Part shown: positions 36,753 to 59,197 of the stretch, piece after piece
How the letters are laid out: the number at the start of each line of letters is the position of its first letter
Position numbering within the stretch: the first letter of the stretch is position 1
From: Tautonia plasticadhaerens
GTDB lineage: Bacteria; Planctomycetota; Planctomycetia; Isosphaerales; Isosphaeraceae
Direction: 5' to 3'
NCBI RefSeq assembly: GCF_007752535.1
Contig: NZ_CP036426.1
Span: forward strand, 1,922,001 to 1,986,000
DNA: 64,000 nt
Made by a program: the position numbers and the translations under genes
The notes under the pieces: model-generated
Database searches by the model: none
Seen by the model: only the letters and a program-made list of their open reading frames with translations
Told to the model about the DNA's origin: nothing

Positions 36753-36838
36753 GCCGAAGTGGCGGAATTGGCAGACGCGCTAGGTTCAGGTCCTAGTCCG
36801 GTTCACCCCGGGTGGAGGTTCGAGTCCTCTCTTCGGCA
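36753..36838 (+). tRNA. tRNA-Leu (anticodon CAG)
   Basis: The acceptor stem GCCGAAG pairs with CTTCGGC (36831-36837) followed by discriminator A. The anticodon stem CTAGG/CCTAG holds the loop TTCAGGT with anticodon CAG. A long variable arm and the T-loop GGTTCGAGTCC are present, as expected of the class II tRNA-Leu. CCA is not encoded. The element to its right starts with an integrase gene 156 bases away, so the 3' end is a likely attachment site. Confidence 0.95.
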
Positions 36839-36850
36839 CTTACAGCATAA

Positions 36851-36993: not shown

Positions 36994-38244
36994 ATGGCCT
37001 GGCACGAGTTCGACTCAAAGAGCGGCTTCTACCGCATCCGCTTCCGGTTCGCCGGCACGAAGTTCAACCTCTCGAAGACCCTCAAGATCACGGACGTGGA
37101 CAGGGCCCACGCCTGCTGTGAGACCGTCGAGGAGACAATCCGCCTGCTCAAGCGGGGCGTCCTCCGCATCCCCGACGGCGTCGATCCCGGCGAGTTCATC
37201 GTCAGCGGCGGCAGGCTCACCGAACCGCTCAAGCCGAACAAGCCCGTGACCAAGCCCAAGACCCTGACCGACCTCTTCAACGCTTACGTCGAGGAGATGG
37301 GGGCCATCGAGGGGCGGGAGGGAACGTCGGAGACTGAGGGCTACCACATCGCCCATCTTTCCACCCCGGACCTCCTCGGCGGCGACCGAATCATCGACGA
37401 GGTCACCGCCGACGACATCCAGCGGTACGTCAACGCTCGATCGAAGCAGTGGTGGCGTGGTCGTTTGATCAGTCGCGATACGATCGAGAAGGAGTTGGCG
37501 ACGCTGGGCACCATCTGGCGATGGGGGGGCCGTCGTGGGCTGGTCGCCGTGCCTCCCCCTTGGCGGCTCCGGGACCTCACCCTCCCGTTCGCGAAGGTGA
37601 AGCCCCAGTTCAGGACTTCCGAGCAGATCGAACGGAAGCTCAAGCGAGGGGGCCTGACCGAGCAGGAGCGGCGCGAGCAGTGGGACTGCCTCTACCTGAC
37701 CGGCGAGGAGATCGAGGAGGTCCTCGACCTCGTCCAGGCCAATGCCACGGCACCGTTCATCTACCCCATGTTCGCCTTCGTGGCCCTCACTGGCGCGCGG
37801 CGGGGCGAGTTGCTCCGATCCCAGATCGACGACTTCGACTTCGAGGCGGGCTCGGTGACGATCCAGGGCACCAAGGGACGACAGCGAACCCAAATCGTGG
37901 CTCGCGAGGTTGACATCCATCCTCGGCTGCGTGATGTAATGACGGGCTGGTTCGCCCATCATCCCGGCGGCCAGCACACGCTCTGCAAGGCCGACGGGTC
38001 TCCCTTGACCGTGCACGAGGCCAACCACCACTTCGACCAGCCGTTGAAGGGGTCGAAGTGGCAGGTGATCAAGGGCTTCCACGTCTTCCGTCACAGCTTC
38101 GCCAGCATCCTGGCCTCCCGAGGCGTGGATCAGCGCTACATCGACAAGTACCTCGGGCACCAGACCGAGGAGATGAAGAAGCGCTACCAGCACCTACACC
38201 CCGGCAAGGGCGGGAAGCCGATCGACGCCCTGCTGGCGGGGTAG
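36994..38244 (+). CDS. Tyrosine-type site-specific integrase
   Basis: 416 residues. An N-terminal arm-binding part (SKSGFYRIRFRFAGTKFNLS) and a SAM-like core-binding domain precede the catalytic domain. Catalytic residues are visible: Arg269 in TGARRGELLRSQ, His and Arg in HVFRHSFASILASRG, the His of YLGHQTEEM and the nucleophile Tyr398 in KKRYQHL. It directs strand exchange between the element and the host attachment site, most likely the tRNA-Leu next to it. It runs away from the tRNA, and its end overlaps the convergent HTH gene by 51 bases. Confidence 0.93.
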   Translation: MAWHEFDSKSGFYRIRFRFAGTKFNLSKTLKITDVDRAHACCETVEETIRLLKRGVLRIPDGVDPGEFIVSGGRLTEPLKPNKPVTKPKTLTDLFNAYVEEMGAIEGREGTSETEGYHIAHLSTPDLLGGDRIIDEVTADDIQRYVNARSKQWWRGRLISRDTIEKELATLGTIWRWGGRRGLVAVPPPWRLRDLTLPFAKVKPQFRTSEQIERKLKRGGLTEQERREQWDCLYLTGEEIEEVLDLVQANATAPFIYPMFAFVALTGARRGELLRSQIDDFDFEAGSVTIQGTKGRQRTQIVAREVDIHPRLRDVMTGWFAHHPGGQHTLCKADGSPLTVHEANHHFDQPLKGSKWQVIKGFHVFRHSFASILASRGVDQRYIDKYLGHQTEEMKKRYQHLHPGKGGKPIDALLAG

Positions 38245-38499: not shown

Positions 38500-38982
38500 G
38501 AGCGTTTGCCAAGAAGTTGACCATGATGGGTTGCTTTGCATCCGAACGAGAGCGATCGCCGTTCTACCCAATTATAGCACATAAATCACAATCTGTCATC
38601 ATGATTATAAACTTTCACTTGAGAATGAAGCCGACTTTGGCTTCGGGATCGCCTGATCACGATGTCCCACCGCATGAAATCGCCGAGGTTGACGGCCCCC
38701 GATCAGTGACCTAGGGAACGATAGGCCCTGCGCCGATCTGGCGTGTGACGGCCCGGATCGACCATCTGGAGCCGGCAGGATCGCTCATGGAACGCCTCCT
38801 TGAGCGACCCGAGGGTCAGTGCCCGGCCGGCGATCGAAACGACCGGGTCGCCGGCCGCCTCGACAAAGAGGCGGGGTTCGCGGTTCCACACCAGGGATGA
38901 AGCTACGGTTGGCATCGGGTCAGGTCACCGGCCTCGCGATGAGTCTTGCGCCCGGCAGCCTGATCCAGGGATCGAGACGACG
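38500..38982. other. Gene-poor gap with an AT-rich core; possible small ORF on minus strand
   Basis: The 38570-38640 part (AATTATAGCACATAAATCAC and onward) is much AT-richer than its surroundings and could hold promoters for the HTH gene, the prim-pol gene, or an origin-type element. A 70-codon minus frame at 38703-38915, with a protein-like stretch (VVSIAGRALTLGSLKEAFHE), may be real, but it has no clear ribosome site and lies at the head of the prim-pol frame. Confidence 0.4.
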
Positions 38983-40470
38983 ATGTCACACTCAATGGAC
39001 GACCAGACCGCCGAGGGGAACGCCGCGCCCACGGCAACCTTGCGCTGGGTCACCGACGCCCTCGATCTGGCCCGGCTCGGCCTCCGGGTCTTCCCCTTGA
39101 GGGCGGGCACGAAGAAGCCGCTGTTCAAGAGCTACAGAAAGCGAGCGACACTCGATCCGGTTGTCATCCGGGCCTGGGGCGACGCACACGGCGACTGCAA
39201 CCTGGGCGTGATGATCGAACCTGGCCTGGTCGTCCTTGACGTGGACCCCAGGAATGGCGGGGCGGAGTCCTTGCGGTCACTGCTCGCGGCTCACCGATCG
39301 TTCCGCACGGTCGAGGCGCTGACCGGCTCGGGGGGCAGTCACTACCTGTTCCGGGTCGGCAAGGGGGACCGCATCCGGTCGAAGACCAATTGGCGCCCAG
39401 GGCTCGACATCCTGAGCGAGGGGAAGTACTTCGTCGTCGAGCCGAGCACCCACCCCGACACGGGCAAGGAGTACGTCTGGCTTCGGCACCCCGGCCAGGG
39501 CATCGGGAATCTACCCCCCTGGTTGCTTGACCTGCTTCCGAAGCGGAGCCGTCGGAGTAGGACCGGCTCCTCGCGTCGTCCCACGTCCGGGAAGAAGGCC
39601 GGCGACTTCGATCGACTGCTGGAGTTCGTCGTCAACAGCTTCCCGATCGACGCCTACGGCCAGCGCCACGACCGGATGAGGGACGCCGTCTGTTCGCTCG
39701 TCTGCCGGGGCGACGACGACGACCTCATCGTGCCGGTCATGATGATCTGGTGGGAACACTTTCACTCGCTCGGCCGGGTCCGCACCGGCCGAGCGGGCAT
39801 GAGCCGCGAACTCCTCGCCTGTCTGCGGTGCACCCGGGACAATCCCGATCTGGAGGCCATCGAGGGGGCGGTATGGCACCGCGTTCGATGCGCCTCGATC
39901 TGCCTGGATCGCAGTCAGCGGCGTCAGATGAAATCGCCGATCCTGGTCGATCCGCTCGGCTGCAAATCGCTCTCGTCCGCCGGGAGAGGAAAGGTCCCCA
40001 GACCCCAAACTTGTAAGAACCTGACACAAATCGGCGACATCTTATGCGAATCGGAGGACGAGGCGGCCTTCGTCGAGTCGTTGATCGTGCATGTCACGCA
40101 CCGTCGGCTCGACTTGGGCGAGATTGAGGTCCGTATGACCGACGACTTCCTGCGCCAGATCGCCGCCGAACGCCGGCCGACGGACTGGCGTCCCTGGTGC
40201 GACAAGCAGATGGACCGGCTCAAGGCCAAGTACTTCTGGAGGCCGGGTCGCGGTGGCCGTCCTGCTCGGCCAGCCACACGATTCGAGTTGTTGCGGGTGA
40301 TCGAGACAGGCACCCCCACCAGGGGGAGCCGGCCAGCCAGGCCCTCGATCTACCGGACCACAGGCATCGAAGCCCTGCTGGCCCCGGAGGCGGTCCAGGC
40401 GACGGCCGGTTCTCGGCACCTTGCGGCACGCCTCGACCTCCCGTCCACGGGCAACAAGGAAGCCGCTTGA
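38983..40470 (+). CDS. Bifunctional primase-polymerase (prim-pol) domain protein of the element
   Basis: 495 residues from the ATG at 38983. The frame is open up to 38800, but conserved sequence begins at LGLRVFPLRAGTKKPLFK. The catalytic acids are Asp86 and Asp88 in VVLDVDPRNGG, the His motif is GSGGSHYLFRVG and a third conserved part is WRPGLDILSEGKYFVVEPS. This is the archaeo-eukaryotic primase-like prim-pol domain found in plasmids, phages and integrated elements. The C-terminal ~300 residues have no recognised helicase motifs, so the protein is probably a primase that borrows a host helicase. Confidence 0.88.
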   Translation: MSHSMDDQTAEGNAAPTATLRWVTDALDLARLGLRVFPLRAGTKKPLFKSYRKRATLDPVVIRAWGDAHGDCNLGVMIEPGLVVLDVDPRNGGAESLRSLLAAHRSFRTVEALTGSGGSHYLFRVGKGDRIRSKTNWRPGLDILSEGKYFVVEPSTHPDTGKEYVWLRHPGQGIGNLPPWLLDLLPKRSRRSRTGSSRRPTSGKKAGDFDRLLEFVVNSFPIDAYGQRHDRMRDAVCSLVCRGDDDDLIVPVMMIWWEHFHSLGRVRTGRAGMSRELLACLRCTRDNPDLEAIEGAVWHRVRCASICLDRSQRRQMKSPILVDPLGCKSLSSAGRGKVPRPQTCKNLTQIGDILCESEDEAAFVESLIVHVTHRRLDLGEIEVRMTDDFLRQIAAERRPTDWRPWCDKQMDRLKAKYFWRPGRGGRPARPATRFELLRVIETGTPTRGSRPARPSIYRTTGIEALLAPEAVQATAGSRHLAARLDLPSTGNKEAA

Positions 40471-43142: not shown

Positions 43143-43207
43143 TCGGGCGAGGTCGGCTCGCCCGAAACGAAAGTGGGCCCGAGGGTGCTGCGAACACCCC
43201 CGGGCCC
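43143..43207 (+). promoter_or_regulatory. Two strong tandem hairpins in the leader of the fusion gene
   Basis: TCGGGCGAG (43143-43151) and CTCGCCCGA (43157-43165) form a perfect 9-bp stem with loop GTCGG. GGGCCCG (43175-43181) pairs with CGGGCCC (43201-43207), and GGGTG (43183-43187) with CACCC (43195-43199), around loop CTGCGAA, with a single A/C mismatch. They sit 35-100 bases before the start codon at 43242 and have no T-run. They could be an attenuator, a translation control, or a terminator of upstream transcripts. Confidence 0.6.
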
Positions 43208-43241
43208 GGGGAACGCCAAGCTGTATGAGAGCCTGACGCCC

Positions 43242-46200
43242 ATGTCTATCGTACCCCGTCGCACCCTCCCCCTGTCGATCACCCACCCCCAACTGGTCGC
43301 CGAATGGCACCCGGAACGCAACGGCGACCTGACGCCCGAGCACCTGACCGCCGGCTCCAACCGCAAGGTCTGGTGGCGTTGCCTCAGGGACCCGGCCCAC
43401 GAATGGGAGGCCCAGGTCAACAACCGGACCCACGGCGGACAGCAATGCCCCCACTGCGCCAATCGTCGCGTCTCTGAGGCCAATTCCTTGGCGACGCTCT
43501 ACCCCGAGGTCGCCGCCCAGTGGCACCCGACCGCCAACGGTGACCTGCGGCCCGAGGCGATCATCGCCGGCTCGAACACAGTCGTCACCTGGGCCTGCCC
43601 GGCCGGGCCCGACCACGTCTGGCGAACGCGGGTCGTCGAGCGGACGACGGGAGGCAAGGGTTGCCCCTTCTGCGCCGGCCGCAGGGCATCGGTCACCAAC
43701 TCGCTGGCGAGCCTCTTCCCCGCCCTGGCCGCCGAGTGGCACCCCGAGCGCAACGGTGACCTGACCCCGGACGGCGTCGTCGCCGGGTCGCACCGCAAGG
43801 CGTGGTGGCGCTGCTCAAAGGACCCCGAGCACGTCTGGCAGGCGACTGTCGTGGATCGGACGACCAGGGGGATCGGCTGCCCGAATTGCGGCGGGCGGGT
43901 TGCGACGGCGACCAACTCGCTGGCGGGCCAGTTCCCCGCCGTCGCCGCCGAGTGGCATCCGACCAGAAACGGCGGCCTGACCCCGGATCGGGTGCTCCCC
44001 CGGGCGGGGACCAAGGTCTGGTGGACGTGCCCCGAGGGCCCCGATCACGAGTGGGAGGCGACGGTGGCCAACCGCACGTCCGGCCGCACGGGCTGCCCCT
44101 GCTGCGCCGGCCGGCACGCGTCGGTGACCAATTCGCTGGCCACGCTGCACCCCGACCTCGCGGCCCAGTGGCACCCGGAGAAGAACGGCGACCTGACGCC
44201 CGACCGGGTGGTGGCGGGCTCGAACACGCCCGCCTGGTGGACGTGCCCGGAGGGGCCGGACCACGAATGGCGTGCCTCGCCGGCCAACCGGACGAAGCTG
44301 GGGCGCGGCTGCCCATGCTGCGCCGGCCAGCGGGCATCGGCCGACAACTCCCTGGCGACCCGCTACCCCGAGGTCGCCCACGGTTGGCACCCGACCCGCA
44401 ACGGTGACCTGACCCCGGATCGGGTCGCGGCGGGCAGCACGCGGCGGGCCTGGTGGCGGTGCTCGAAGGACCCGTCGCACGAGTGGGAGGCGATGATCTA
44501 CACGCGGACCCTCGGCGACAGCGGTTGCCCGACCTGCAAGAAGGGCTGGACCGTCGGGGCGATCCGGGGCCTCGTCGCCTCGCTGGTCGAGCACCTGTCG
44601 GCCTTCACTCCCGCCGAGTTGTACCTGCTGTTCCAGCAGAACGGCCTGATCGGGAGCACCGGCAAGGGCAAGGCGTTCGCCGACGCCCTGGCCACCGGCC
44701 GGTTCCCGGCCGACGAGTTGGGCAAGTTCGTCCGGAGCGAGCCGTCGCTGGTGGACGAGTTCCTGGCCGATCCGACGCGGTCGCTGGGCGACGGGGAGCC
44801 CGAGGACGAGGACGGCGAGGCGCGCGCCCTGGCCGTGCTGCCCGAGGGCTCGATCGACGGCACGGACGGGCCCGCCGCAACGTCGGAAGCCGAGGGGCTG
44901 CCGACGATCGAGACGAGCCGGGTGCTCGCGGCCCTGGACCACGCCGTCGTCTCCTCGGCCGACGCCGAGGCGGTCGAGTTCCTCGTCGCCTCGGGCGTGG
45001 CCAAGCTCTGGGCCCACGCCTTCCTCGATGAGGACGAAGCCGTCGCCCAGGCGGAGGACTTCCACGGCGGCGCGTTCGCCGAGCGGGTGAAGGGGCGCTT
45101 CCTCGACGAGCACCGCCGCGCCCGCAACCTGGCGATCCCCGAGGGGTATGCCTTCGCCCTCGACGGCCGCCCGGTGGCCCCGAACCTGATGCAGCGGCTG
45201 GTGGCCGTGCAGGTCCGCGACGACCGCCGCGTGGGCAACTGGTCCGGCACTGGCGCCGGCAAGACCCTCTCGGCCGTGCTCGCCTCGCGGGCCGCCGGCT
45301 GCCGCACCACCGTGGTCTGCTGCCCCAACGCCGTCGTCGAGGGCTGGCGCGACGTGATCATCGCCGCCTTCCCGGGCAGCCTGGTGGCGATCAAGACTTT
45401 CGAGCCCGGCTGGCCGGCCGGCGACCAAGGCCGCCCCCGCTACCTGGTGCTCAACTACGAGATGCTCCAGCAGCCCGACTCGGCCGCCCGGGTCGGCGAC
45501 CTGATCGGACGCGGACCGATTGACCTGGTGATCATCGACGAGGTCCACTTCGCCAAGCAGCGGGCCGCCGAGGACATGACCCTCCGCCGCCGCAACCTCT
45601 TCGCCCTCATGTCCCTGGCCGCCGAGGACAACCCGGGCCTCCGGGTGCTGGGGATGTCGGCCACGCCGGTGATCAACAACCTCCAGGAGGGCCGCAGTCT
45701 GGTCGAACTGGTCACCGGGGCGGAGCACGCGGAGTTGGAGACCCGGGCCACCCTGCCCAACTGCATGCGGCTGCACCAGCGGCTCACCACGCTGGGCATC
45801 CGCTGGATGCCGCGCTGCGACGCCGTCTACCAGCAGGTCGAGGTCCCGGTCGATTGCTCGGCCTACCTGGACGAGATCAGGGCCCTCGGCCGCAAGAACG
45901 GCAACCCGTTGTCGCTGGAGCAGGTCCTCACCAGGGCCCGCATGCCGGTGATCCGCGCGCAGGTGCGGCCCAAGACGCTGATCTACACGCACTACGTCCA
46001 GGGGATCGACCGGCTGCTCTACGACGCCCTGGCGGCTGACGGCTGGCGGGTCGGCTTCTACACCGGCGACGACAAGTCGGGCCTGGAGGGCTTCGTCTCG
46101 GGCGACGTGGACGTGCTGATCGGCTCGGCGGCCATCGGCGTGGGGGTCGATGGCCTCCAGCGGGTCTGCAACCGGCTGATCGTGGCCGTCCTGCCCTGGA

Positions 46201-47135
46201 CAGGCGCGGATTTCGAGCAACTCAAGGGCCGGGTGTTCCGCCAGGGGCAGCGCCAGGGCTCGGTGACGATGGTCCTGCCGATCACCTACGCGGAGGTCGG
46301 CGGTCAGCGGTGGTCGTGGTGCGAGTCGAGGTTGAACCGGCTTCGCTTCAAGAAGTCATTGGCCGATGCGGCGGTCGATGGCGTGGTGCCCGAGGAGCCC
46401 CTGCGCACCCCGGCCCAGGCATACCAGGACGTGATGGGCTGGCTCGATCGGCTCGACTCCGGCCAGGTCGAGGCGATCACCCGCACCCCGATCCGCGTGC
46501 CCCTTCCCCCGACTGACGAGACTGGCGTGCGACGCCGCCGGCACGGCGACTTCACGAAGATGAACCAGGTCTGGGGCCGGATGGCGAGCGACGCGCTGCA
46601 CCGCCGGCTCCAGGCCGACCCCGGCGAATGGGCCCACTACCACGCGATGTACCGGGCGGCCCGCGAGGACTGGGCCATCGTTCCGGCCGAGGAGTTGATC
46701 CGCTGGTGCCGCCGCCGGAGCGGCTATGTCATCGGCGACTTCGGCTGCGGGGAGGCGATGCTGGCCAATGCCCTCTCCGACCTGCACGTGGTCCACAGCT
46801 TCGACCACGTGGCGATCGACGACTCGGTGGTGGCCTGCGACATGGCCCATGTGCCGCTGGAGGACGAGTCGTTGGACCTGGCGGTCTTCTCGCTCTCGCT
46901 GATGGGTGCCGACCCGACGGGCTACCTCCGCGAGGCGCACCGGACGCTCAAACTCGACGGCGAGCTTCACGTCGTCGAACCGACCTCCCGCTTCACCGAC
47001 CGGGACCGCTTCACGCGGGACCTGACCAGGCTGGGCTTCGACGTGGTGCGGGTCGAGGACTGGTGGAAGTTCACCCACATCCGGGCCTTGAAGACGGACG
47101 GGACGCCGCAGGACGGAGCCGCGATCACATTCTGA
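43242..47135 (+). CDS. Six zinc-ribbon repeats, Snf2-type helicase and Rrp8-like methyltransferase fusion
   Basis: 1297 residues from the ATG at 43242. Residues ~12-443 hold six ~72-residue repeats of the DUF4379 zinc-ribbon type, each with a W-H-P motif, then W-x-C, H-x-W and C-P-x-C (for example AAEWHPERNGDLTPDGV and GKGCPFCAG). After a linker with FTPAELYLLFQQNGLIG comes an SF2 helicase: Walker A in GTGAGKTLS (near 670), VLNYEML, DEVH in VIIDEVHFAKQ, SATPVINN, and the final RVFRQGQRQG, an Snf2-like motif VI. The last ~180 residues are a class I methyltransferase: DFGCGEAMLANAL, HSFDHVAIDD, ACDMAHVPLEDESLDLAVFS and LSLMGADPTGYLREAHRTLK. This closely follows the Rrp8/nucleomethylin pattern, which in eukaryotes makes m1A in large-subunit rRNA. 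It likely binds nucleic acid and modifies or remodels it. The island location favours a defence role, which is inference. Confidence 0.85.
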   Translation: MSIVPRRTLPLSITHPQLVAEWHPERNGDLTPEHLTAGSNRKVWWRCLRDPAHEWEAQVNNRTHGGQQCPHCANRRVSEANSLATLYPEVAAQWHPTANGDLRPEAIIAGSNTVVTWACPAGPDHVWRTRVVERTTGGKGCPFCAGRRASVTNSLASLFPALAAEWHPERNGDLTPDGVVAGSHRKAWWRCSKDPEHVWQATVVDRTTRGIGCPNCGGRVATATNSLAGQFPAVAAEWHPTRNGGLTPDRVLPRAGTKVWWTCPEGPDHEWEATVANRTSGRTGCPCCAGRHASVTNSLATLHPDLAAQWHPEKNGDLTPDRVVAGSNTPAWWTCPEGPDHEWRASPANRTKLGRGCPCCAGQRASADNSLATRYPEVAHGWHPTRNGDLTPDRVAAGSTRRAWWRCSKDPSHEWEAMIYTRTLGDSGCPTCKKGWTVGAIRGLVASLVEHLSAFTPAELYLLFQQNGLIGSTGKGKAFADALATGRFPADELGKFVRSEPSLVDEFLADPTRSLGDGEPEDEDGEARALAVLPEGSIDGTDGPAATSEAEGLPTIETSRVLAALDHAVVSSADAEAVEFLVASGVAKLWAHAFLDEDEAVAQAEDFHGGAFAERVKGRFLDEHRRARNLAIPEGYAFALDGRPVAPNLMQRLVAVQVRDDRRVGNWSGTGAGKTLSAVLASRAAGCRTTVVCCPNAVVEGWRDVIIAAFPGSLVAIKTFEPGWPAGDQGRPRYLVLNYEMLQQPDSAARVGDLIGRGPIDLVIIDEVHFAKQRAAEDMTLRRRNLFALMSLAAEDNPGLRVLGMSATPVINNLQEGRSLVELVTGAEHAELETRATLPNCMRLHQRLTTLGIRWMPRCDAVYQQVEVPVDCSAYLDEIRALGRKNGNPLSLEQVLTRARMPVIRAQVRPKTLIYTHYVQGIDRLLYDALAADGWRVGFYTGDDKSGLEGFVSGDVDVLIGSAAIGVGVDGLQRVCNRLIVAVLPWTGADFEQLKGRVFRQGQRQGSVTMVLPITYAEVGGQRWSWCESRLNRLRFKKSLADAAVDGVVPEEPLRTPAQAYQDVMGWLDRLDSGQVEAITRTPIRVPLPPTDETGVRRRRHGDFTKMNQVWGRMASDALHRRLQADPGEWAHYHAMYRAAREDWAIVPAEELIRWCRRRSGYVIGDFGCGEAMLANALSDLHVVHSFDHVAIDDSVVACDMAHVPLEDESLDLAVFSLSLMGADPTGYLREAHRTLKLDGELHVVEPTSRFTDRDRFTRDLTRLGFDVVRVEDWWKFTHIRALKTDGTPQDGAAITF

Positions 47136-47378: not shown

Positions 47379-47397
47379 CATGTCATCAACATGTCAT
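47379..47397 (+). promoter_or_regulatory. Possible operator: two 8-bp direct repeats at the cmr2 start
   Basis: CATGTCAT at 47379-47386 and again at 47390-47397, a spacing of 11 bases or one helix turn. The second copy runs into the ATG at 47396. This could bind a regulator between the -10 box and the start codon. Confidence 0.35.
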
Positions 47398-49402
47398 GAC
47401 GGTCGCCTCGATGGTCAGCGAGGCAGACGGGCCGTGTCCCCGGTGCCCGGCGAATCGGCCGGAGTATGCCCCAACGTCGGAGACCCCGGACGTGGACCCT
47501 CTCGACGCCGCCGATGCCGACACTCGGGGTCATTTCCTGGCGTTCTCCCTGGGGCCCGTCCAGCCGTTCATCGCTTCGGCCCGCTCGGTCCGCGACCTCT
47601 GGACCGGCAGCTACGTGCTGAGTTGGCTGTGCCTCGCCGGTATGCAGCCGATCCGGGATCGCTTCGGAGACGGGGCGATCCTCTCGCCGAACCTCGGCGG
47701 GAATCCCTTGCTGGGATCACGTGGAGTCGCGCACGAGGGGTTGCCTTCGGCCTGCTTGCCGAACCGATTCCTCGCACGCATCCCCGACGATGACGGCGAC
47801 ACCGCCCGGCTCCTGGCCGATGATTGTGAGCGGAGTTGTCGAGCGGGCTGGAAGCAGATCAGCGGCGCGGTCCGCCGGGGGCTCGCAGTTCGCATGGAGG
47901 GCCTCGACCCGCACTGGGATCGGCTCTGGGACGCCCAGGTGGACGACTTCTTCGAGGTCCGAACCGTCGTCCTGCCGCTCGCTGGCTGCGACGCGCCGAC
48001 GCTCGAACGCCTGCTCTGCGAGCAGTATGACCTGACGCGGCCCGATGGGCTCGCGTGGGGCCGCTTGGAACTGGTCGCCCGCCTGATGGAGGCGCGGGGG
48101 GCAGCCGGGCACCATCCGGCCTACGCCGCCCGGGGCGACGTGCCCCAGAAGTGCTCGCTCCTGGGCAGCTACGAGCAGATGGGGCCGGCCGGGCTGGACG
48201 AGTCCCGGCGCTTCTGGGAGGCGTTGGCCGTCCCCGAGAACGCCTGGTCCGGCACCAGGACGCGGCGGTCCGAGCGGCTCTGCGCGGTCAGCCTTGTCAA
48301 GCGGTTCGCCTGGCCGGCGTTCCTGCACGAGGAAGTGGGACTCACGCCCGAGTCCGGCTACTTCCCCGACACGGCCACCGTGGCGGCTTCCAGGTGGCTC
48401 GCGACGGAGCCGGAGATCAGGCCAGATCGCGAGCGAGCGGAGCATGGGGCCTGGTCTGGCCAGTGGCTGCACCGGGCCGAGCAGGAAGGCCCCGGTAGGA
48501 GGCGCGTCGATGATGACCGCGACCCTCCCCCGCGCGACGGACTCCTGCGGACCATCCGGCGCAAGCGACTCGCCCAGGATGCCCCCCCGGCGTACCTGGC
48601 AATCCTGATGATGGATGGCGACCGGCTGGGGCAATGGCTCGCAGGGATCGGGCCCAATGGCACGCCGGCGACCCGGGTCGCCCCGAACGAGTGGATCGCC
48701 GCGATCAGCCGAGCATTGGCCCAGTTCTCGGTCGGGCGCGTCCCGGAGATCGTCCGCCGGCACGGTGGCGTGCCCATCTACTCGGGAGGGGACGATGTGC
48801 TCGCTTTCCTGCCCCTGGAGGACTCCCTCCCCTGCGTGCAAGAACTCCGGGATGCCTACGTCGAAGGATGGGCCCGGTGGGTCGACCCGCTCTGCGAGCC
48901 GGCGGCCCGGTCGGGGGCCACCGTCAGCGCCGGCCTCGCCGTGGTCCACCACAAGGAGGACCTGCGATACGCCCTGGGCCGGGCCCGTGCGGCCGAGCAT
49001 GCCGCCAAGCAGGCGGGTCGAGACGCAGTGACGTTGACGATCTGCCGCCGATCGGGCGAGCATGCGTCCGTCGGCCTGCCCTGGTCGCTCCTCCCCCGCG
49101 TCGAACGCTGGCGCACGTCGTTCGCGGCCGGTGCCTCGGACCGATGGCTGTACGTCCTCCGTTCGGAGTTGCCGACCCTGGGTGGCGACGAGATGCCCTG
49201 GTTGGCCGTGGAGGCAGAAGTGCGGCGCCTCGCCAGTCGCGCCGAGGACCCGGCGCGACGAATTGGTCCCGACGAAGCGGTGGACTTGTTGGACGCCTAT
49301 CGCGAGGCGATGGAGAGGCGAGGTCGAGGCCGGGGGCGTGTGCTGGCAGACTTCATCACCCTGGCCCAATCGGCCTCATTCCTGGCCCGAGGTAGGGACT
49401 GA
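47396..49402 (+). CDS. cmr2: Type III-B Cas10 (Cmr2), palm/cyclase subunit
   Basis: 668 residues, shorter than typical Cmr2. The Cmr2 N-terminal motif LAFSLGPVQPFIASARSVRD is near residue 45, followed by LWTGSYVLSW. The first palm domain has ILMMDGDRLGQWL and the second YSGGDDVLAFLPL, so the GGDD cyclase site is intact. The complex should make cyclic oligoadenylate from ATP when target RNA is bound. No N-terminal HD nuclease motif is seen, which fits with CARF effectors doing the work. It starts the operon, and its stop overlaps the cmr3 start (TGATG). Confidence 0.95.
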   Translation: MTVASMVSEADGPCPRCPANRPEYAPTSETPDVDPLDAADADTRGHFLAFSLGPVQPFIASARSVRDLWTGSYVLSWLCLAGMQPIRDRFGDGAILSPNLGGNPLLGSRGVAHEGLPSACLPNRFLARIPDDDGDTARLLADDCERSCRAGWKQISGAVRRGLAVRMEGLDPHWDRLWDAQVDDFFEVRTVVLPLAGCDAPTLERLLCEQYDLTRPDGLAWGRLELVARLMEARGAAGHHPAYAARGDVPQKCSLLGSYEQMGPAGLDESRRFWEALAVPENAWSGTRTRRSERLCAVSLVKRFAWPAFLHEEVGLTPESGYFPDTATVAASRWLATEPEIRPDRERAEHGAWSGQWLHRAEQEGPGRRRVDDDRDPPPRDGLLRTIRRKRLAQDAPPAYLAILMMDGDRLGQWLAGIGPNGTPATRVAPNEWIAAISRALAQFSVGRVPEIVRRHGGVPIYSGGDDVLAFLPLEDSLPCVQELRDAYVEGWARWVDPLCEPAARSGATVSAGLAVVHHKEDLRYALGRARAAEHAAKQAGRDAVTLTICRRSGEHASVGLPWSLLPRVERWRTSFAAGASDRWLYVLRSELPTLGGDEMPWLAVEAEVRRLASRAEDPARRIGPDEAVDLLDAYREAMERRGRGRGRVLADFITLAQSASFLARGRD

Positions 49403-50520
49403 TGACGCCCCGAGACCGCGTCCGCATCGGCCTCGGGATCGAGGCGCTCGACCTGCTGTTCTTCCGGGGCGGCCGGCCCTTCGGCCCCGCGACCCGCGCC
49501 GAGGGCGGGCTGCCCCAGCCACAGACCCTGGCGGGGGCGCTGCGGACGGCGGCCCTGGCCGCGCACGGCTTCGACTTCGCCGGATGGTCGCGGAGGGTCC
49601 GGGACTCGACTCGGGGGGAGGGCGACCTCGCGGGGCTCCTGGAAGAATTCGGTGCCCCCCCGGGCCTGGTCGGCAGCCTGTTTCGCGGCCCCTGGTTGAT
49701 GGAAGAGGGAGTGGGATCGGAACCCACGCCGCTGTGGTCCATGCCGGCAAACCTCTACAGGACCGAGGGTGGGCGATGGTCTCGCTCCGACCCGCTGCCC
49801 GAAGCTCCTCCCGGCTGGGAGTCGAGGCCGTCGGCCCGGAGGCCCCTCTGGCGGCGTGGCGATCGGTCCGCGAAGCGGCCCGAGGGGTTCCTGCGTCCCG
49901 CCGGCATGACCACCTATCTCCGAGGGGGCGTCCCCACCGATGCGGATTGGGTCCGGCCGGCCGAACTGTACGACTTCGACAGTCGCACCGGCCTGGAGAT
50001 CGACCCGGAGACCCTGGCCGGGGCCGAGGGCCGGCTGTACGCGACCCGGATGCTCGCCCTGCGGCGTCACGTCTCCTTCTACGCGGAGGTCCTCCCCCCG
50101 GCCGCGCACGCCGATGCCGTCCGGCGCCTGCTCGGCGGGCCCTTCCCGTGGGGCGGCGAGGGCCGGTATGCCGTGGCCCGGGTGCTGGACCGCTGCGTCG
50201 ACTGGCCCGATGGTGGAGACGCGGAGGGGCTGCCACTACGAGTGCTGGCCTCCCCCGGGTTGTATCGCGTCGCGGGCCTGCCCGACCGGATCGCCGAGGA
50301 GCACCTGGTCGCCGTCGCCTCCGGCCGGGCGTTCGCCGTCTCGGGCTGGGACGTGGCCCGCAACGCCCCACGGCCGACCCGATTCGCCGCGCCGGCCGGC
50401 GCGGCCTATTTCCTCGACGGCGACGCGCCCGAGGACGGGTCATCATCGCTCTGCACCGACCCGGACCTCGTCGCCGAGGGCTGGGGATTCGCCCTCAAGG
50501 GAGCCTGGCGACATGCCTGA
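49402..50520 (+). CDS. cmr3: Type III-B RAMP protein Cmr3
   Basis: 372 residues. The N-terminal RIGLGIEALDLLFFRGGRPF and QPQTLAGALRTAAL are the classical Cmr3 signature, with R-D/G-G-R-P-F and the P-x-T-x-x-G-A-L-R loop. Cmr3 binds the 5' handle of the crRNA with Cmr2 at the base of the complex. The start overlaps the cmr2 stop and the end overlaps cmr4 by 8 bases. Confidence 0.92.
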   Translation: MTPRDRVRIGLGIEALDLLFFRGGRPFGPATRAEGGLPQPQTLAGALRTAALAAHGFDFAGWSRRVRDSTRGEGDLAGLLEEFGAPPGLVGSLFRGPWLMEEGVGSEPTPLWSMPANLYRTEGGRWSRSDPLPEAPPGWESRPSARRPLWRRGDRSAKRPEGFLRPAGMTTYLRGGVPTDADWVRPAELYDFDSRTGLEIDPETLAGAEGRLYATRMLALRRHVSFYAEVLPPAAHADAVRRLLGGPFPWGGEGRYAVARVLDRCVDWPDGGDAEGLPLRVLASPGLYRVAGLPDRIAEEHLVAVASGRAFAVSGWDVARNAPRPTRFAAPAGAAYFLDGDAPEDGSSSLCTDPDLVAEGWGFALKGAWRHA

Positions 50521-51484
50521 GAACGTCGTTTCCGCGATCCTGGGCCTGCACGCCCAGACCTCGCTCCATCCCGGGGCCGGGACCGCGCTGGGCATCGTCG
50601 ACCTTCCCGTGCAGCGCGAGCGGCACACCCGGTGGCCGACGATCCCAGGCTCCTCGCTCAAGGGCGTGCTCCGCGACGCCTGCCGGGAGCGCTACAAGTC
50701 TGAGTACTCGGGAGATCGACAGCGGACCAACCAGGAGAGCCCGAGGCTCCGTGCCGCCTTCGGCCCGCACACCGAGGCGGCCGGCGAATCGGCCGGCGCC
50801 CTGAGCCTCACCGACGCCCGGCTGCTGGCCTTCCCGGTCCGGTCGCTCAGGGGTGTCTTCGCCTGGGTGACCAGCCCGGCCGTGCTGGACCGGCTCCGTC
50901 GCGACCTGGCGCTCTGTCGCTTCGGGGCCATCGACTGGCAGGTCCCGCACGTCGAGAAGAACCGGGTGATGCTCCCCTCGGATGACTGCCCGTGCCTGAT
51001 CGAGGGCGGGCGCATCGCCCTGGAGGAGTTCCTCTTCGAGCGCGCCGGCGACTCGGACGGCCGGATCGCAGGCTGGATCGCCGATCACGTCCTGCCCGAT
51101 TCGGCCGCCTTCGACGCGACTCGCGCCCGCTTCCGACGCAGCCTGCTCGTGCTGCACGACGACGACTTCGACCACTTCGCCCAGTATGCCACCGAGATCA
51201 ACGCGCGCATCGGTCTGGACTACGAGACCAAGACCGTCAAGGGCGGGGCCCTCTTCTACGAGGAGTACCTTCCCCCGGAGACGCTCTTTTACGCGCTCGT
51301 GCTGGCCAACGAGGCACGGGCCAGGGCCAACGGCGAACATCCCTCGGCCGGCCGTGCCATGGGGGCGGTGGATGTCTTCGATGTCCTGAGGGAGACGCTC
51401 CCGGAGGTCCTCCAGGTGGGGGCGGATCAGTCGATCGGCAAGGGGTATTGCGCCACGAGACTCGCCCGAGGGAGGCACGATTGA
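50513..51484 (+). CDS. cmr4: Type III-B backbone RAMP Cmr4 (target RNA cleavage)
   Basis: 323 residues from the ATG at 50513, 8 bases inside cmr3. The start GLHAQTSLHPGAGTALG and VDLPVQRERHTRWPTIPG match Cmr4; Asp30 in VDLPVQRE is the conserved residue that cuts bound target RNA at 6-nt steps. SSLKGVLRDACRERY follows as the RAMP helix motif. A glycine-rich end SIGKGYCATRL is present. It should form the helical backbone on the crRNA guide. Its stop overlaps the cmr5 start. Confidence 0.93.
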   Translation: MPENVVSAILGLHAQTSLHPGAGTALGIVDLPVQRERHTRWPTIPGSSLKGVLRDACRERYKSEYSGDRQRTNQESPRLRAAFGPHTEAAGESAGALSLTDARLLAFPVRSLRGVFAWVTSPAVLDRLRRDLALCRFGAIDWQVPHVEKNRVMLPSDDCPCLIEGGRIALEEFLFERAGDSDGRIAGWIADHVLPDSAAFDATRARFRRSLLVLHDDDFDHFAQYATEINARIGLDYETKTVKGGALFYEEYLPPETLFYALVLANEARARANGEHPSAGRAMGAVDVFDVLRETLPEVLQVGADQSIGKGYCATRLARGRHD

Positions 51485-51882
51485 TGGCCGGCCACCAGAC
51501 CCTCGATCAGCGTCGCGCATCCCATGCCTGGCGGGTCGTTCAGCAGGTCAAGGACGAGGGCAGGGACGATGCCAGGCGGGAATTCAAGCTCCAGGCCAAA
51601 CGCCTACCAGCCCGGGTCGTGACGGCGGGCCTTGGCCAGGCACTGGCATTCCTGGAGGCCAAGGACTACGCGCCACACCTGCGGGCCGCGCTGACCGACT
51701 GGATCGGGCAGCAGGTGTCGGCGGCCCCGGGCCGCACCGGCGATCGGCTGCTTCGCCGCGTCGTCGAGGGTGATTCCGACTTCCTCCGGCTCGCGACCGC
51801 CGAATGCCTGGCCTATTTGCAGTGGGTCGTCCGCTTCGCCGAGGCGGAGTTCCGCGACATCAGCGACGTGGAGGAGGTCTGA
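51484..51882 (+). CDS. cmr5: Type III-B small subunit Cmr5
   Basis: 132 residues, all-helical, of the expected size. The N-terminal TLDQRRASHAWRVVQQVKDE matches the Cmr5 helix 1 pattern, and LGQALAFLEAKDY, RLATAECLAYLQWVVRFAEA later helices. Cmr5 lines the belly of the complex next to the target strand. The ATG overlaps the cmr4 stop (TGATG) and the gene ends 3 bases before cmr6-cmr1. Confidence 0.92.
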   Translation: MAGHQTLDQRRASHAWRVVQQVKDEGRDDARREFKLQAKRLPARVVTAGLGQALAFLEAKDYAPHLRAALTDWIGQQVSAAPGRTGDRLLRRVVEGDSDFLRLATAECLAYLQWVVRFAEAEFRDISDVEEV

Positions 51883-51885
51883 GGG

Positions 51886-54393
51886 ATGCCCATCGGCAGG
51901 GTCCAGTTCTGGGTACGCTCCCGATCCCAAGGCGCCGTCCTTGATGAGCGAGGCGCGCGTCTCCTGTTCACGGCGAAGGACCTGGAAGGGCTCAGGGTCG
52001 AGGAGATTCGCGATGGCCTGGAGGTCGCCTTCGACCTCGGCCCCGATGGGACTGCCCGCCGCGTCCGTCAACCGCGATCCTCGTTCCTTCGTCCCCCGGA
52101 ACCCCTCGACAGGGACGATCCCCTCCTGACCGCCGTCCCGCTGCCGCCCTCGCTCCGTGAACTGGTGGAGCGGTTCAAGGGGCTTGTCCATCCCGGCCTC
52201 CGGTTGGACAAGTACATGATGCCCGCCGTCAATCAGGAGGGGCAGAAGCGGGTCCTGTCCGAGGTCGCGGAGCGATCGCAGGGTGATACGCAACTCCTCG
52301 CCGAGGTCTTGCGGCGTCGTGACGCGATGCTGGACGCCGCCGAAGTTGTGCGTTGGGACCGCGAGACGGCGGGGCCGCTGACGCTGCACCTGGCGCGGGC
52401 CTCGGCGTTGGAGAACGCCGGCCTGTGCCTCCACCCGATCTACGGGTTCACCTTCCTGCCCGGCTCGGGCCTCAAGGGCCTGGCCCGTGCCTATGCCGAG
52501 ACCGTCTGGCGGCCGGGCCAGCCCGATGACGCGGCGGCGGCAACGGACATCGAACGCATCTTCGGCTTCATTCGGGGGACGGGGGACGAGGGAGCGGCGG
52601 CCGGCACCGTCATTTTCCACGACGCCTGGCCCGCATCCTGGCCCCGGCTGATGGTGGACATCGTCAACAACCACCACTTCGGTTACTACCGGGGGGAGGA
52701 CTGGCCGGGCGACTGGGAGTCGCCGTCGATGGTCTATTTCCTCGCCGTCCCCCCCGGCCAGACGTTCTCGTTCGCGCTGGGCAAGCGGAGAGGGGATGTC
52801 GACGTTCGCCTGCTGGGCCTCGCCCGCGCGTGGCTGGACGGTGGCCTGACGCACCTGGGCTGCGGCGCCAAGACGGCCGCCGGCTACGGGCACTTCGCCC
52901 CGCAAGCGAACGAGCCGCCCATGCCGAGCGGTCCCAACCGCACGGGCTTCTCGGCGGCCATGACGCTCGAATCGCCGGCCTTCCTCGCCGGGGCACGCCA
53001 GGAGGCAGACGACTGCGACCTCCGCCCCGCGACGCTCCGGGGCCTTCTCCGCTGGTGGTGGCGGACCCTGCACGCCGGCGCCCTCAGCCAGACACAATTG
53101 CGGGACCTGGAAGCGGCGATCTGGGGCAACACCGCCGCTGGTAGCGTCGTCCAACTCCAGGTCGAGTCGCAACGGCCAGGGTCCTTGCTCTACGACAAGA
53201 GCGCCAGGATCGACATGCGATCGGGCGAGAAGGGCGGTCCTTATGGTATCCCCGGGGCCGACCCGAGGAAGACGACCCAGGGCCTCTGGTACGCCTCGTT
53301 CGGGATGCACGACGGCGGCCGTCGCCGCTTCGTTGTCGAGCCTGGGGCGGCCTGGACGATCCGATTGACCGCTCGGACCAACAAGGCTCTCCGAGAACAC
53401 GGGCTCGGTCCCGACGACGTGCTTGATCAGGCCCGTGCTGCCCTCTGGCTGCTCTGTCGATACGGCGGCGTTGGCTCCAAGGCACGCAAGGGGTTCGGGT
53501 CGCTCTCGGCCGGGGGGCTGGACGAAATGGACCTCGACCACTGCCGCGAGGCATCCCGCAGGTTCCGCAGGGGTATGGGCCTGCCCGAGGACGAACGCCC
53601 GGGGGTGGCCGAATCGCCGGCGCTGTGCGACCTCGTGGCCGAAGAGATCGAGGCCGAGTTCCCCTGGGACGATGTCTGGCCCGTCCTCGATCAGGTCGGC
53701 TTCGCCTGGCAGGGATTCGCCAAGCGGTTCGCCCACGACCACGACCAGGAGGGGCAATTGGTCCCGACGTGGTCGGGCAGGGATGCCCCCACGGGCTACA
53801 CGAAGGCGTCGCTCGGGGTGCCCCGGCGGATGGATGGTGGGGACCGACGCTGGGCGGGCGAGCGACACGCATCGCCGGTCCACATCCACGTCGAGCGGGC
53901 CGGGGGTGGCGCCCATCGGGTCCGGGTCATCGCCTTCGCCGCACCCCGGCTGCCGACCCGCGAGAGCAGCGTGACGTTCCTGCGGGCGTTCCTCGACCAC
54001 CTGCGCGATGACCTCCGACGCCGGTCGCGACTTCCTCCAAGGTCCTCCCGGCCTGGCCCGAGCGGGCGCGGCGGGCGACCCGGCCCGGTGGGGGGCGGGG
54101 GGTTCGGCCAGCGGCGGGATGCGGGGGCAGCCCGGACGCGAGGCGAACTCCATGGCGGTCCAGCGCCTGCTGCCCCGCCCCGTGGCCATCCCAAAGCCGG
54201 CGACCGCGTCGAGGCGACCTTGCTCCCGGAGCGGACGAAGAAGGGCGGCTGGAAGGCGCGCCACGAGCCGACCGGCCTGAGCGGGCCCATCGTCGATTCG
54301 GCCAAGGTGCCCTCCGACAAGGAGCCCGGCAACGTCATGACGCTCATCGTGCACGCGGTCGGCGCTCGCGAGATGACGTTCCGAGTCGAGTGA
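51886..54393 (+). CDS. Fused Cmr6-Cmr1 protein with OB-like ends
   Basis: 835 residues, with a GAGGAGG site just before. Residues 1-62 resemble a cold-shock/OB-like fold (MPIGRVQFWVRSRSQGAVLD; GARLLFTAKDLEGLRV). Residues ~80-340 are Cmr6-like: GFTFLPGSGLKGLARAYAET and HLGCGAKTAAGYGHFAP. From ~350 the sequence is Cmr1-like: MTLESPAFLAGARQ, TLRGLLRWWWRTLHAG and GGVGSKARKGFGS. A Pro/Gly/Arg-rich linker (about 700-765) leads to a second OB-like end (GDRVEATLLPERTKKGGWKA; VMTLIVHAVGAREMTFRVE). Cmr1 and Cmr6 are normally separate subunits that cap the 3' end of the complex, so a fixed 1:1 fusion is consistent with their joint position. Single open frame, no frameshift seen. Confidence 0.88.
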   Translation: MPIGRVQFWVRSRSQGAVLDERGARLLFTAKDLEGLRVEEIRDGLEVAFDLGPDGTARRVRQPRSSFLRPPEPLDRDDPLLTAVPLPPSLRELVERFKGLVHPGLRLDKYMMPAVNQEGQKRVLSEVAERSQGDTQLLAEVLRRRDAMLDAAEVVRWDRETAGPLTLHLARASALENAGLCLHPIYGFTFLPGSGLKGLARAYAETVWRPGQPDDAAAATDIERIFGFIRGTGDEGAAAGTVIFHDAWPASWPRLMVDIVNNHHFGYYRGEDWPGDWESPSMVYFLAVPPGQTFSFALGKRRGDVDVRLLGLARAWLDGGLTHLGCGAKTAAGYGHFAPQANEPPMPSGPNRTGFSAAMTLESPAFLAGARQEADDCDLRPATLRGLLRWWWRTLHAGALSQTQLRDLEAAIWGNTAAGSVVQLQVESQRPGSLLYDKSARIDMRSGEKGGPYGIPGADPRKTTQGLWYASFGMHDGGRRRFVVEPGAAWTIRLTARTNKALREHGLGPDDVLDQARAALWLLCRYGGVGSKARKGFGSLSAGGLDEMDLDHCREASRRFRRGMGLPEDERPGVAESPALCDLVAEEIEAEFPWDDVWPVLDQVGFAWQGFAKRFAHDHDQEGQLVPTWSGRDAPTGYTKASLGVPRRMDGGDRRWAGERHASPVHIHVERAGGGAHRVRVIAFAAPRLPTRESSVTFLRAFLDHLRDDLRRRSRLPPRSSRPGPSGRGGRPGPVGGGGFGQRRDAGAARTRGELHGGPAPAAPPRGHPKAGDRVEATLLPERTKKGGWKARHEPTGLSGPIVDSAKVPSDKEPGNVMTLIVHAVGAREMTFRVE

Positions 54394-54409
54394 CCGGGGA
54401 CCATCGCCG

Positions 54410-55606
54410 ATGCGCATCCTCCTCTGCCTGCTGTCCGAGCAGCATGTCCCCAACCTGCTGTCGGTCCATCACTTCGATCCGAAACCCGACCGGCTCGTGC
54501 TGGTCGAGACCGGGGAGATGAAGCGGCGCCGCGCCGCCGAGCATCTGCTCAAGGCCCTGGAGGCCGGCGGGCTGGACTACTCCGACCGTTGCGAAATCCA
54601 GACGCTGGAGCACGAGGACTCCCTGCCCGAGGTCCGCCGTGCCTTGCAGGACGCCTTCGGACGCCATCCGTCGGACGAGTGGATCGTCAACCTGACCGGC
54701 GGCACCAAGCCGATGTCCATCGCCGCGTTCATGTTCTTCTCGGTGATGGACGCGGCGGCGATCTACCTCAGCGGCCGACAGCCGAACGTCATCCGCTGGA
54801 TGGACGGCTCGAAGGTCGAGACATGCGTCTATCGGCCCACCGTCGCCGAGTTCCTCGCTGGCTACGGTTTCCCCTCACGCAAGCCCCCCGAGAAGGTCGC
54901 TGAGGCGGAGGAGCGGGCACGAGGATGGTGGGCCCTGGCGCGGGTCCTGGCAGCCCGGAGCACCGCCGAGAGCCTGATCTGCTTCGAGGACGAGCGGGAG
55001 CGGAGCAAGGCCAGGGACAGGGGCTTCGCCCTTGAACATCGGCACCTGGAGCCCAGGACGCTCGCGGTCCCGGACATCCTCCGATCCATCGTCGAGCACT
55101 TCGACCTGATCGAGCAGGACAGTGTGCCGACCGGCAAGCTGGACAGGTACCAGACGCAGTTCCTGCTCGGGGGCTGGCTGGAGGTCTTCATCTGGGGCCT
55201 GCTCGATCGTCACCATGCGGCTCTGGACATCTGGGACGTGCGGCTCGGCCTGGAACCGACGAGCCCCGACGCCCAGGTCGGCAACGACTTCGATGTCGCC
55301 TTCATGCACCGCTACCGCCTCTGGATGGTCGAGTGCAAGACCGGCAGCCAGGAGCACGACCCCGGCGGCGACATCCTCTACAAGGTCGAGGCCGTCATCC
55401 GCCAGTTCCGGGCCCTGCACGTGCGCACGTCCCTGGCCACGACCTCCGACTTCCTGACCGACCCCCGGACCGGCACAATCAGGGAAGGCCACCGCAACCG
55501 AGCTTCGGCCTACGGCTGCGCCCTCGTGACCCGCGATCAGGTCCGCGCCATGGCCGAGGCCGACGACCCGGTCGAACTGCTTCGCGAGGCCCTGGGGCTC
55601 CGTTGA
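54410..55606 (+). CDS. CARF-domain nuclease, Card1/Can2-like (DUF1887)
   Basis: 398 residues. An N-terminal CARF fold starts MRILLCLLSEQHVPNLLSVH and has the ligand loop WIVNLTGGTKPMSIAAFMFF near residue 100. A middle helical part leads to a PD-(D/E)xK nuclease: NDFDVAFMHRYRLWMVECKTG at about 292-312 supplies Asp and Glu-x-Lys. Card1/Can2 proteins are switched on by cyclic tetra-adenylate and cut single-stranded DNA and RNA. It lies 16 bases after cmr6-cmr1 and is likely the main effector of this type III system. Confidence 0.88.
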   Translation: MRILLCLLSEQHVPNLLSVHHFDPKPDRLVLVETGEMKRRRAAEHLLKALEAGGLDYSDRCEIQTLEHEDSLPEVRRALQDAFGRHPSDEWIVNLTGGTKPMSIAAFMFFSVMDAAAIYLSGRQPNVIRWMDGSKVETCVYRPTVAEFLAGYGFPSRKPPEKVAEAEERARGWWALARVLAARSTAESLICFEDERERSKARDRGFALEHRHLEPRTLAVPDILRSIVEHFDLIEQDSVPTGKLDRYQTQFLLGGWLEVFIWGLLDRHHAALDIWDVRLGLEPTSPDAQVGNDFDVAFMHRYRLWMVECKTGSQEHDPGGDILYKVEAVIRQFRALHVRTSLATTSDFLTDPRTGTIREGHRNRASAYGCALVTRDQVRAMAEADDPVELLREALGLR

Positions 55607-55607
55607 C

Positions 55608-56753
55608 ATGCGACCCGCCACCACGCTGATCAGCACCGTCGGCACGAGTCTCTTCATGCCGAACCTCGCCGGATTGCGGGGCGATGACCCCGACCCCGAG
55701 CGGCGTCGGCTGGCCGTCGCCTACGCCGCACGCGACTGGGGCGCTGTGGCCAGTGCCCTGGCGTCGCTGCCCCCGACCGAGCGGACTTGCGGCGCCGAGG
55801 TCAACTCGATCGCAAGCCTGCTGACCAGGGGCTACGCCGTCCCCGACGCGAACCTGTTCTTCTGCCACTCGGATACCGACGACGGCCGGGCTATCGGCCG
55901 GGTCCTGGCCGCCTACTACCGCCGGGTCGGCCATCCCGTCGCCGAGACCAGGCCGATCGACGGCTTGCAGGACAGCGACCCGAGGCGATTTCGCACCGAG
56001 GGCCTGCGCAACCTGGCCAAGGTCGTCTGTCGGCTGGTCCGCGACTACGGCCCCGATGCCTGCGCCATCAACGCCACCGGCGGCTACAAGGCTCAGATCG
56101 CCGTCGCCGTGCTCCTGGGCCAGGCCCTCGGCGTGCCGGTCTACTACAAGCACGAGCGGTTCGACGAAATCATCGCCTTCCCGCCGATGCCTGTGGCGCT
56201 CGACGTGCGGGCCTGGATGCGGCACAGCGGCCTGCTTGCACTGCTCGATGCCGAAGGGCGGGTTCCGACCTCCGCATTGGCCGAGGACCTGGACGACGGG
56301 GGCGAAATCCTCGAATGCTTCGTCGACCGTGTCGAGGTCGACGGCGAGGAGTACCTGGCCCTCTCGCCGACCGGCCAGGTCGTCCATGAGACCTTCCGGG
56401 AACGATTCCGCACCGAGCGTGACCGCTTCTTGCCTCCTGCGGTGTTTGCCTCGGACAAGCAGCCGCCGAAGCTCGGCGACCACGGCGTGATCCTCCGGCA
56501 CCGCGAGGCGCTGCGGCGATACCTCGCTGCGATCACCGACGATGTCCCGCAGGTCCGGTCGTGTCGTACGGTCTATTGCAACCCAGACCTGCCCCGCCCC
56601 CTGATGTTCCGGCTCAGGGGCGAGGAGGTCCAGGGGACCTGGTCCGACGGCTCCGATGCGGTCACCTTCGCGGTCCAGTCGTCGGCGACGACCGACGGCC
56701 AGCGTGAGGCCGTTGTCGCGATCCTCAACGACTGGCTCCAGGCACGCCGGTAG
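55608..56753 (+). CDS. APE2256-type CARF protein with winged helix and possible RelE-like end
   Basis: 381 residues, one base after the Card1-like stop. The N-terminal LISTVGTSLFMPNL and the loop INATGGYKAQIAVAV (Asn155 on) are the APE2256/Csm6-type CARF motifs that bind cyclic oligoadenylate. Residues ~195-275 look like a winged helix (AWMRHSGLLALLDAEGRVPT; LALSPTGQVVHETFRERF). The last ~90 residues have a helix-strand-strand pattern (LRHREALRRYLAAI; RTVYCNPDLPRPLMFRL; TFAVQSSAT) that could be RelE-like, as in the Cami1 CARF-wHTH-RelE ribosome-dependent nucleases. No HEPN R-x4-6-H motif is found, so it is not a Csm6/Csx1 RNase. A ring-nuclease role is the alternative. Confidence 0.8.
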   Translation: MRPATTLISTVGTSLFMPNLAGLRGDDPDPERRRLAVAYAARDWGAVASALASLPPTERTCGAEVNSIASLLTRGYAVPDANLFFCHSDTDDGRAIGRVLAAYYRRVGHPVAETRPIDGLQDSDPRRFRTEGLRNLAKVVCRLVRDYGPDACAINATGGYKAQIAVAVLLGQALGVPVYYKHERFDEIIAFPPMPVALDVRAWMRHSGLLALLDAEGRVPTSALAEDLDDGGEILECFVDRVEVDGEEYLALSPTGQVVHETFRERFRTERDRFLPPAVFASDKQPPKLGDHGVILRHREALRRYLAAITDDVPQVRSCRTVYCNPDLPRPLMFRLRGEEVQGTWSDGSDAVTFAVQSSATTDGQREAVVAILNDWLQARR

Positions 56754-59192: not shown

Positions 59193-59197
59193 CGCCG

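Follow-up and report, generated by a model that had tools for sequence, protein, structure and literature searches.

A protein joining zinc-finger repeats, an Snf2-type motor and an Rrp8-type methyltransferase in Tautonia plasticadhaerens as a candidate mobile conflict enzyme

A stretch of 64,000 nucleotides from the genome of the planctomycete Tautonia plasticadhaerens (contig NZ_CP036426.1, positions 1,922,001 to 1,986,000; hereafter the window) carries a gene whose predicted product joins six DUF4379 zinc fingers, an Snf2-type motor and a methyltransferase domain of the Rrp8/nucleomethylin type in a single chain. We propose tentatively, with somewhat less than even confidence, that this fusion is a self-contained and horizontally mobile conflict enzyme, most likely a defensive one directed against phages or rival mobile elements. 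The three-domain reading is not due to chance, since the same core is present in more than 25 other genomes. The open frame extends from 43041 to 47135 on the plus strand, and the ATG at 43242, which agrees with the starts of the homologues, gives a protein of 1,297 amino acids with the following parts:

43242..47135, plus strand: fusion gene, 1,297 amino acids, comprising a DUF4379 array, a helical linker, an Snf2-type motor and an Rrp8-type methyltransferase (Pfam, AlphaFold2 model, homologues)
43266..44543, plus strand: reader array of six tandem DUF4379 treble-clef zinc fingers, period 72 amino acids, with conserved W, N, C, H, R and CxxC (PF14311 six times, E 3e-118; repeat profile; structure match to mt-SAF33/mS66)
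44544..45125, plus strand: conserved, mostly helical linker of no known family, with a divergence step near residue 480 (about nucleotide 44680)
45126..46529, plus strand: Snf2-type superfamily 2 (SF2) motor with conserved Walker A GTGAGKT, DEVH, SATP and QLKGRVFRQGQ (motifs, fold)
46530..47132, plus strand: Rrp8/nucleomethylin-type methyltransferase domain with DFGCGE, FDHVA, CDMA and LSLMG (PF05148 E 2e-43; 2ZFU E 3e-35, Z 27.2; 25-row alignment)

The initial annotation had likened the C-terminus to Rrp8, and both profile and structure bear this out. The Methyltransf_8/Rrp8 family (PF05148) matches residues 1102-1272 over profile positions 13-184 of 219, with 149 bits against a cut-off of 27, and the same profile matches 25 of the 27 family members. 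In a single-sequence search of the last 210 residues against all PDB chains, human RRP8/nucleomethylin (2ZFU) was the single match. It is also the top structural match of the C-terminus when residues 371-1297 are modelled with AlphaFold2 (pLDDT, the predicted local confidence, 80), with a root-mean-square deviation of 1.9 Å over 200 of 212 residues, and the structure search thus led to Rrp8 rather than to an unrelated methylase family; the structural second look by VIA-align took in Foldseek candidates only. Identity to human RRP8 is 42% (36% over the 200 structurally aligned residues), 24 of the 31 residues invariant among 25 prokaryotic members are identical in the human protein, and the likeness takes in the helical YH...W...P segment preceding the Rossmann fold as well as the S-adenosylmethionine-binding and LSLMG motifs. 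The domain is therefore a true relative of Rrp8, from which the protein as a whole differs in being prokaryotic and in having this domain joined to a motor and a reader array. In the family alignment (25 rows), the place of the NPPY motif of N6-adenine methylases reads LSLMG, and the motif (N/D/S)PP(Y/F/W) is absent. Between the window gene and its homologue in a congener (G430), the ratio of nonsynonymous to synonymous divergence (dN/dS) of the methyltransferase is 0.18, which places the domain under purifying selection.

The Snf2-type assignment of the central region, also made initially, is borne out by fold and motifs. Pfam ResIII and Helicase_C match it weakly, and model residues of about 250-680 match Ino80, CSB, ISWI and Chd1 with Z of 18-22. 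The SF2 motifs Walker A (GxGKT), DExH, SAT and QxxGRxxRxGQ are kept in the motors of the family. ZorD, the defence motor of Zorya, is matched at Z 18.3, and in NCBIfam and PADLOC the C-lobe gives short and weak matches, far below cut-off, to DrmD of DISARM and others (for DrmD, 26.9 bits against an equivalog cut-off of 610, over about 60 residues, E 1e-6 to 4e-7). ZorD and DrmD, which share the motor fold and motifs, show that Snf2-type motors are used in defence. No Drm partners were found among the scanned genes of the 34.8-kb integrated element that holds the fusion gene, and with its weak local DrmD match and its other fused domains the gene is, as far as its predicted domains tell, not a member of DISARM.

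The N-terminal zinc ribbons, too, were counted correctly at the outset, as Pfam gives six copies of DUF4379 with 386 bits, above the cut-off of the family (PF14311). The fingers repeat with a period of exactly 216 nucleotides, i.e., 72 residues, and have invariant W, N and H and the ligand pattern C...H...CxxC. A model of a single repeat (73 rows, pLDDT 90) matches only mt-SAF33 and mS66 of the trypanosome mitoribosome and entries related to them, with a best Z of 11.6 over 66 residues and lower values for the others. The finger fold is the same in these proteins and in DUF4379-nuclease fusions, from which the present family differs by arraying 3-14 copies ahead of a motor. DUF4379 is present in 13 of the 14 genomes checked, where it is confined to the fusion gene except for one nuclease of a Simkaniaceae member. 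This nuclease (L067:11922-14150), a convergent neighbour of a family member with the integrase-repeat type of reader, combines a restriction-type nuclease domain of the MTES_1575 family and an I-TevI DNA-binding domain with six DUF4379 fingers. TAL-effector matches in Pfam were dismissed, being due to a shared LTPDQVVA stretch.

Across the family the N-terminus consists either of 3-14 DUF4379 fingers or of an array of integrase-type repeats (PF14882), and the type of reader changed at least twice on the tree; the sister of an archaeal member with fingers, for instance, is a chlamydial one that has integrase-type repeats. The trees of the motor and of the methyltransferase have 12 of 22 splits in common, the well-supported ones among them. 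As judged from these sequences, the motor and the methyltransferase are inherited together and the reader is exchangeable between two unrelated repeat types. The comparison with the congener points the same way: the synonymous divergence (dS) of the finger array is 1.24 (identity 55%), as opposed to 0.33-0.35 in the motor and methyltransferase (identity 83-90%), with a jump in divergence near residue 480, which indicates a separate replacement of the reader. Six further pairs, more diverged and near saturation at synonymous sites, show a protein likeness of 0.48-0.66 for the array versus 0.72-0.84 for the motor. Arrays resembling PF14882 serve as the reader in L067, L070-L072, L075, L080, L114, L116 and L117, and jumbo phages and the VPA1269-type proteins of conjugative plasmids contain similar arrays.

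Two short peptide patterns, run against 84,980 species genomes, gave 25 loci, which is a lower bound. They belong to Planctomycetota, Cyanobacteriota, Thermodesulfobacteriota, Pseudomonadota, Myxococcota, Chlamydiota, Chloroflexota, Actinomycetota, Thermoplasmatota, Nitrososphaerota and an unassigned archaeon, so that the core of motor and Rrp8 domain is present in at least 10 bacterial and archaeal phyla; the gene is also found on plasmids of Crinalium and Rhodococcus. Many of these loci come from metagenome bins, but the contigs that carry some of the archaeal copies are 0.57 to 1.7 Mb long. Within the carrying phyla the family is rare: in five of them the Rrp8-domain profile was matched in 4/292, 3/250, 4/301, 1/243 and 1/246 genomes (0.4-1.4%, the centre genome being counted each time), and among 392 Planctomycetota a full-length PF05148 match was found solely in the window genome. 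Full-length matches lie either in long frames together with the motor or in fragments and at contig edges, and among those of the sampled genomes none was a clear stand-alone prokaryotic Rrp8. The homologues are thus patchy, mobile and mostly single-copy, and the housekeeping pattern that would have spoken against a defence role was not seen. Copies broken by frameshifts or stops occur in L068, L074, L079 and L080. No relative was found among viral contigs in two scans; among phages there was none with the window protein as query, and a member with integrase-type repeats retrieved only the integrase-type repeats of jumbo phages. The Nitrososphaeraceae genomes G453 and G457 (L075, L079, L081, L101, L104-L106) have several, partly fragmented copies each, as opposed to the single copies elsewhere. 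In L062, L071 and L073 the members lie at most about 2.3 kb from tRNA genes (Gln, Ser and Thr), with an integrase beside the tRNA gene in L071, which suggests that these copies, too, are in tRNA-targeted elements.

In the conflict reading that we favour, the exchangeable N-terminal array, whether of fingers or of integrase-type repeats, would pick the target, the motor would move along double-stranded nucleic acid and expose or remodel it, and the Rrp8-type domain would methylate adenine, the most likely position being N1, which is the one that Rrp8 modifies. The methylation itself would be the effector, acting on a presumably foreign target that is harmed by it and blocking its copying or translation with no cutting. 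N1-methyladenine cannot pair, and methylation could thus disable a template without cleavage. The Snf2 motor and the turnover of readers suggest that the target is DNA, and the ribosomal links of DUF4379 and Rrp8 suggest RNA. An RNA-directed enzyme, in which the fingers would bind structured RNA, the motor would remodel it and the Rrp8 domain would place N1-methyladenosine (m1A) in rRNA, tRNA or mRNA of the host or of foreign origin, seems to us rather unlikely. Its action would either shut off translation in infection or confer resistance to a toxin or drug that targets the ribosome. Known Snf2-type motors, however, track along double-stranded DNA, the replacement of arrays is not explained by a fixed rRNA site, and the DUF4379 array near one family member is joined to the nuclease and I-TevI DNA-binding domain mentioned above. 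Ribosome-linked relatives at both ends of the chain do agree with an RNA target, as mt-SAF33 and mS66 are the only solved DUF4379 relatives, and m1A in helix 25.1 of 25S/28S rRNA is the product of yeast Rrp8 and of human nucleomethylin (PMC6085284). This helix, on the other hand, lies near the eukaryotic expansion segments ES7b/c (PMC6085284), and the same site is therefore not expected in bacteria.

It is distinctly improbable that the enzyme serves a mobile element by harmless marking or maintenance, i.e., that it methylates chosen sequences of its own element or of host DNA as an orphan methylase or as an anti-restriction or silencing factor. Carriage on plasmids and integrative elements would suit such a role, ArdA was found once among the neighbours, and the combination of motor, methyltransferase and recognition in one chain resembles the restriction-modification (RM) enzymes of types ISP and IIG minus the nuclease. 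These RM enzymes have methyltransferase and target recognition in one chain, with a motor in addition in type ISP, and their recognition modules are exchangeable. The fusion protein differs from them in its Rrp8-type methyltransferase, in the finger or integrase-type repeats that stand in place of a target recognition domain and in the absence of any nuclease family recognised by Pfam or NCBIfam, and by its domain content it is not a type ISP or IIG enzyme. Endocyclic methylation of the Rrp8 type, which blocks pairing, would moreover be a poorly tolerated mark, the protein does not have the NPPY motif of amino-methylases, and no partner nuclease is kept nearby.

The surroundings of the gene in the window were described initially as an integrase/primase module upstream and a type III-B CRISPR (clustered regularly interspaced short palindromic repeats) operon downstream, and both are in place:

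36753..36839, plus strand: tRNA-Leu(CAG), the integration site
36779..36841, plus strand: left 63-bp direct repeat
36994..38244, plus strand: tyrosine recombinase (integrase) of the element (PF00589)
38800..40470, plus strand: Prim-Pol primase-polymerase (PF09250)
47396..56753, plus strand: type III-B CRISPR operon with Cas10/Cmr2, Cmr3, Cmr4, Cmr5, Cmr6/Cmr1, a Card1-like CARF nuclease and a CARF7 protein
57134..59216, plus strand: CRISPR array with degenerate repeats
59075..60064, plus strand: Cas6 (open frame; the true start is probably after the array; PF10040)
60439..63400, plus strand: type I RM genes HsdM and HsdS

An identical 63-bp copy of the 3' end of the tRNA-Leu gene at 71496-71558 (G000:C1:1993496-1993558), 7.5 kb past the window, shows that the fusion gene lies within a 34.8-kb integrated element; GmrSD and HsdR are found just past the window edge and still inside it. 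The location is thus in a defence context, a tRNA-integrated island with III-B CRISPR, type I RM and GmrSD. At the same tRNA-Leu gene the congener has the integrase, the fusion gene and the III-B operon, together with a type I RM system that differs from the one here. Between the two genomes the dS of the cas genes beside the fusion gene is 0.17-0.34, similar to that of its motor and methyltransferase, as opposed to 1.0-2.2 for the chromosomal neighbours (a set that leaves out 32984-35026, a wrong-frame gene call of low value), which indicates that the cassette moved recently between lineages. That the gene immediately precedes the III-B operon in both congeners and was transferred jointly with it could suggest an accessory gene acting with the III-B system. 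We nevertheless consider such a role very improbable, since scans of the neighbours of family members outside the genus (some flanks being short) turned up no cas genes, the association with cas genes is one of two congeners only, and the protein has no CARF or CRISPR-type domain. Despite the strong homology to a eukaryotic housekeeping enzyme, a housekeeping rRNA methyltransferase fused to a helicase is almost certainly the wrong description of a gene with replaced readers that is carried on plasmids and islands, mostly in single copy, by 0.4-1.4% of the sampled genomes in the phyla that have it.

Elsewhere, genes of defence type lie directly upstream of the fusion gene and on the same strand. 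In two Polyangia this is an MmeI-type IIG RM gene and in a third PDC-M68B/ABC-3C; a cyanobacterium has an AbiU2-like HEPN protein at this place, and a member of the Anaerolineaceae has an FRG protein. An all-against-all comparison of 453 neighbours yielded no partner gene conserved beyond the genus except the MmeI pair in Polyangia, from which it follows that the protein likely acts alone. This want of a conserved partner is also among the points that weigh against a defence enzyme. Defence neighbours are frequent in a plain listing of the surroundings, and several copies lie amid ordinary genes (e.g., L057, L059 and L113) or are carried by plasmids on which no defence neighbours were recognised. 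The methyltransferase is absent from one relative (L036). Solved DUF4379 domains are found only in mitoribosomes, which may point to a ribosomal target, and the action of Rrp8 on rRNA could do the same. The proposed conflict function is read from domains, folds, motifs and context, and the activity is a predicted one. The idea of a self-contained defence or modification system, with which the gene had first been annotated, thus stands as regards its domains and its location in an island, and the function proposed for it is read from context and homology only.

In a bolder form, which we regard as doubtful, the fusion would represent a new class of immunity or inter-element conflict system, in which an exchangeable array guides an Snf2 motor and an Rrp8-type effector that places N1-methyladenine on foreign nucleic acid and so disables it by blocking its pairing, with no cleavage. 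It would also be the first prokaryotic Rrp8 family to be described, from which the eukaryotic enzyme may have come. In the open-access literature we found no description of the fusion, of a function of DUF4379 or of PF05148 in prokaryotes; the domains are each known, and their combination and the prokaryotic Rrp8 family appear to be undescribed. Rrp8 has been studied as a eukaryotic rRNA enzyme, and its clear prokaryotic matches are seen here only as the working end of a mobile fusion. The family bears on the origin of eukaryotic Rrp8; a tree with one human sequence gives no orientation for the transfer. If the methyltransferase is the effector, this would be defence through base methylation instead of cleavage, with a modular reader exchanged between unrelated repeat types. 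The swappable arrays are, in addition, a natural data set on recognition by DUF4379 and integrase-type repeats.

Two features of the CRISPR cassette and one of the genome at large may be added. At 54410-56753 two ring-nucleotide-sensing proteins, the Card1-like CARF nuclease and a CARF7/DUF2103-type protein, are encoded in tandem. The repeats of the array at 57134-59216 are unusually degenerate along its whole length and not at one end only. A remnant of a second motor of the family, with 45% identity, lies in the same genome at G000:C1:2022193-2022774 (L086, about 9863-10519), and the gene beside it also neighbours an intact relative without the methyltransferase in G429 (L085, 9131-11623).

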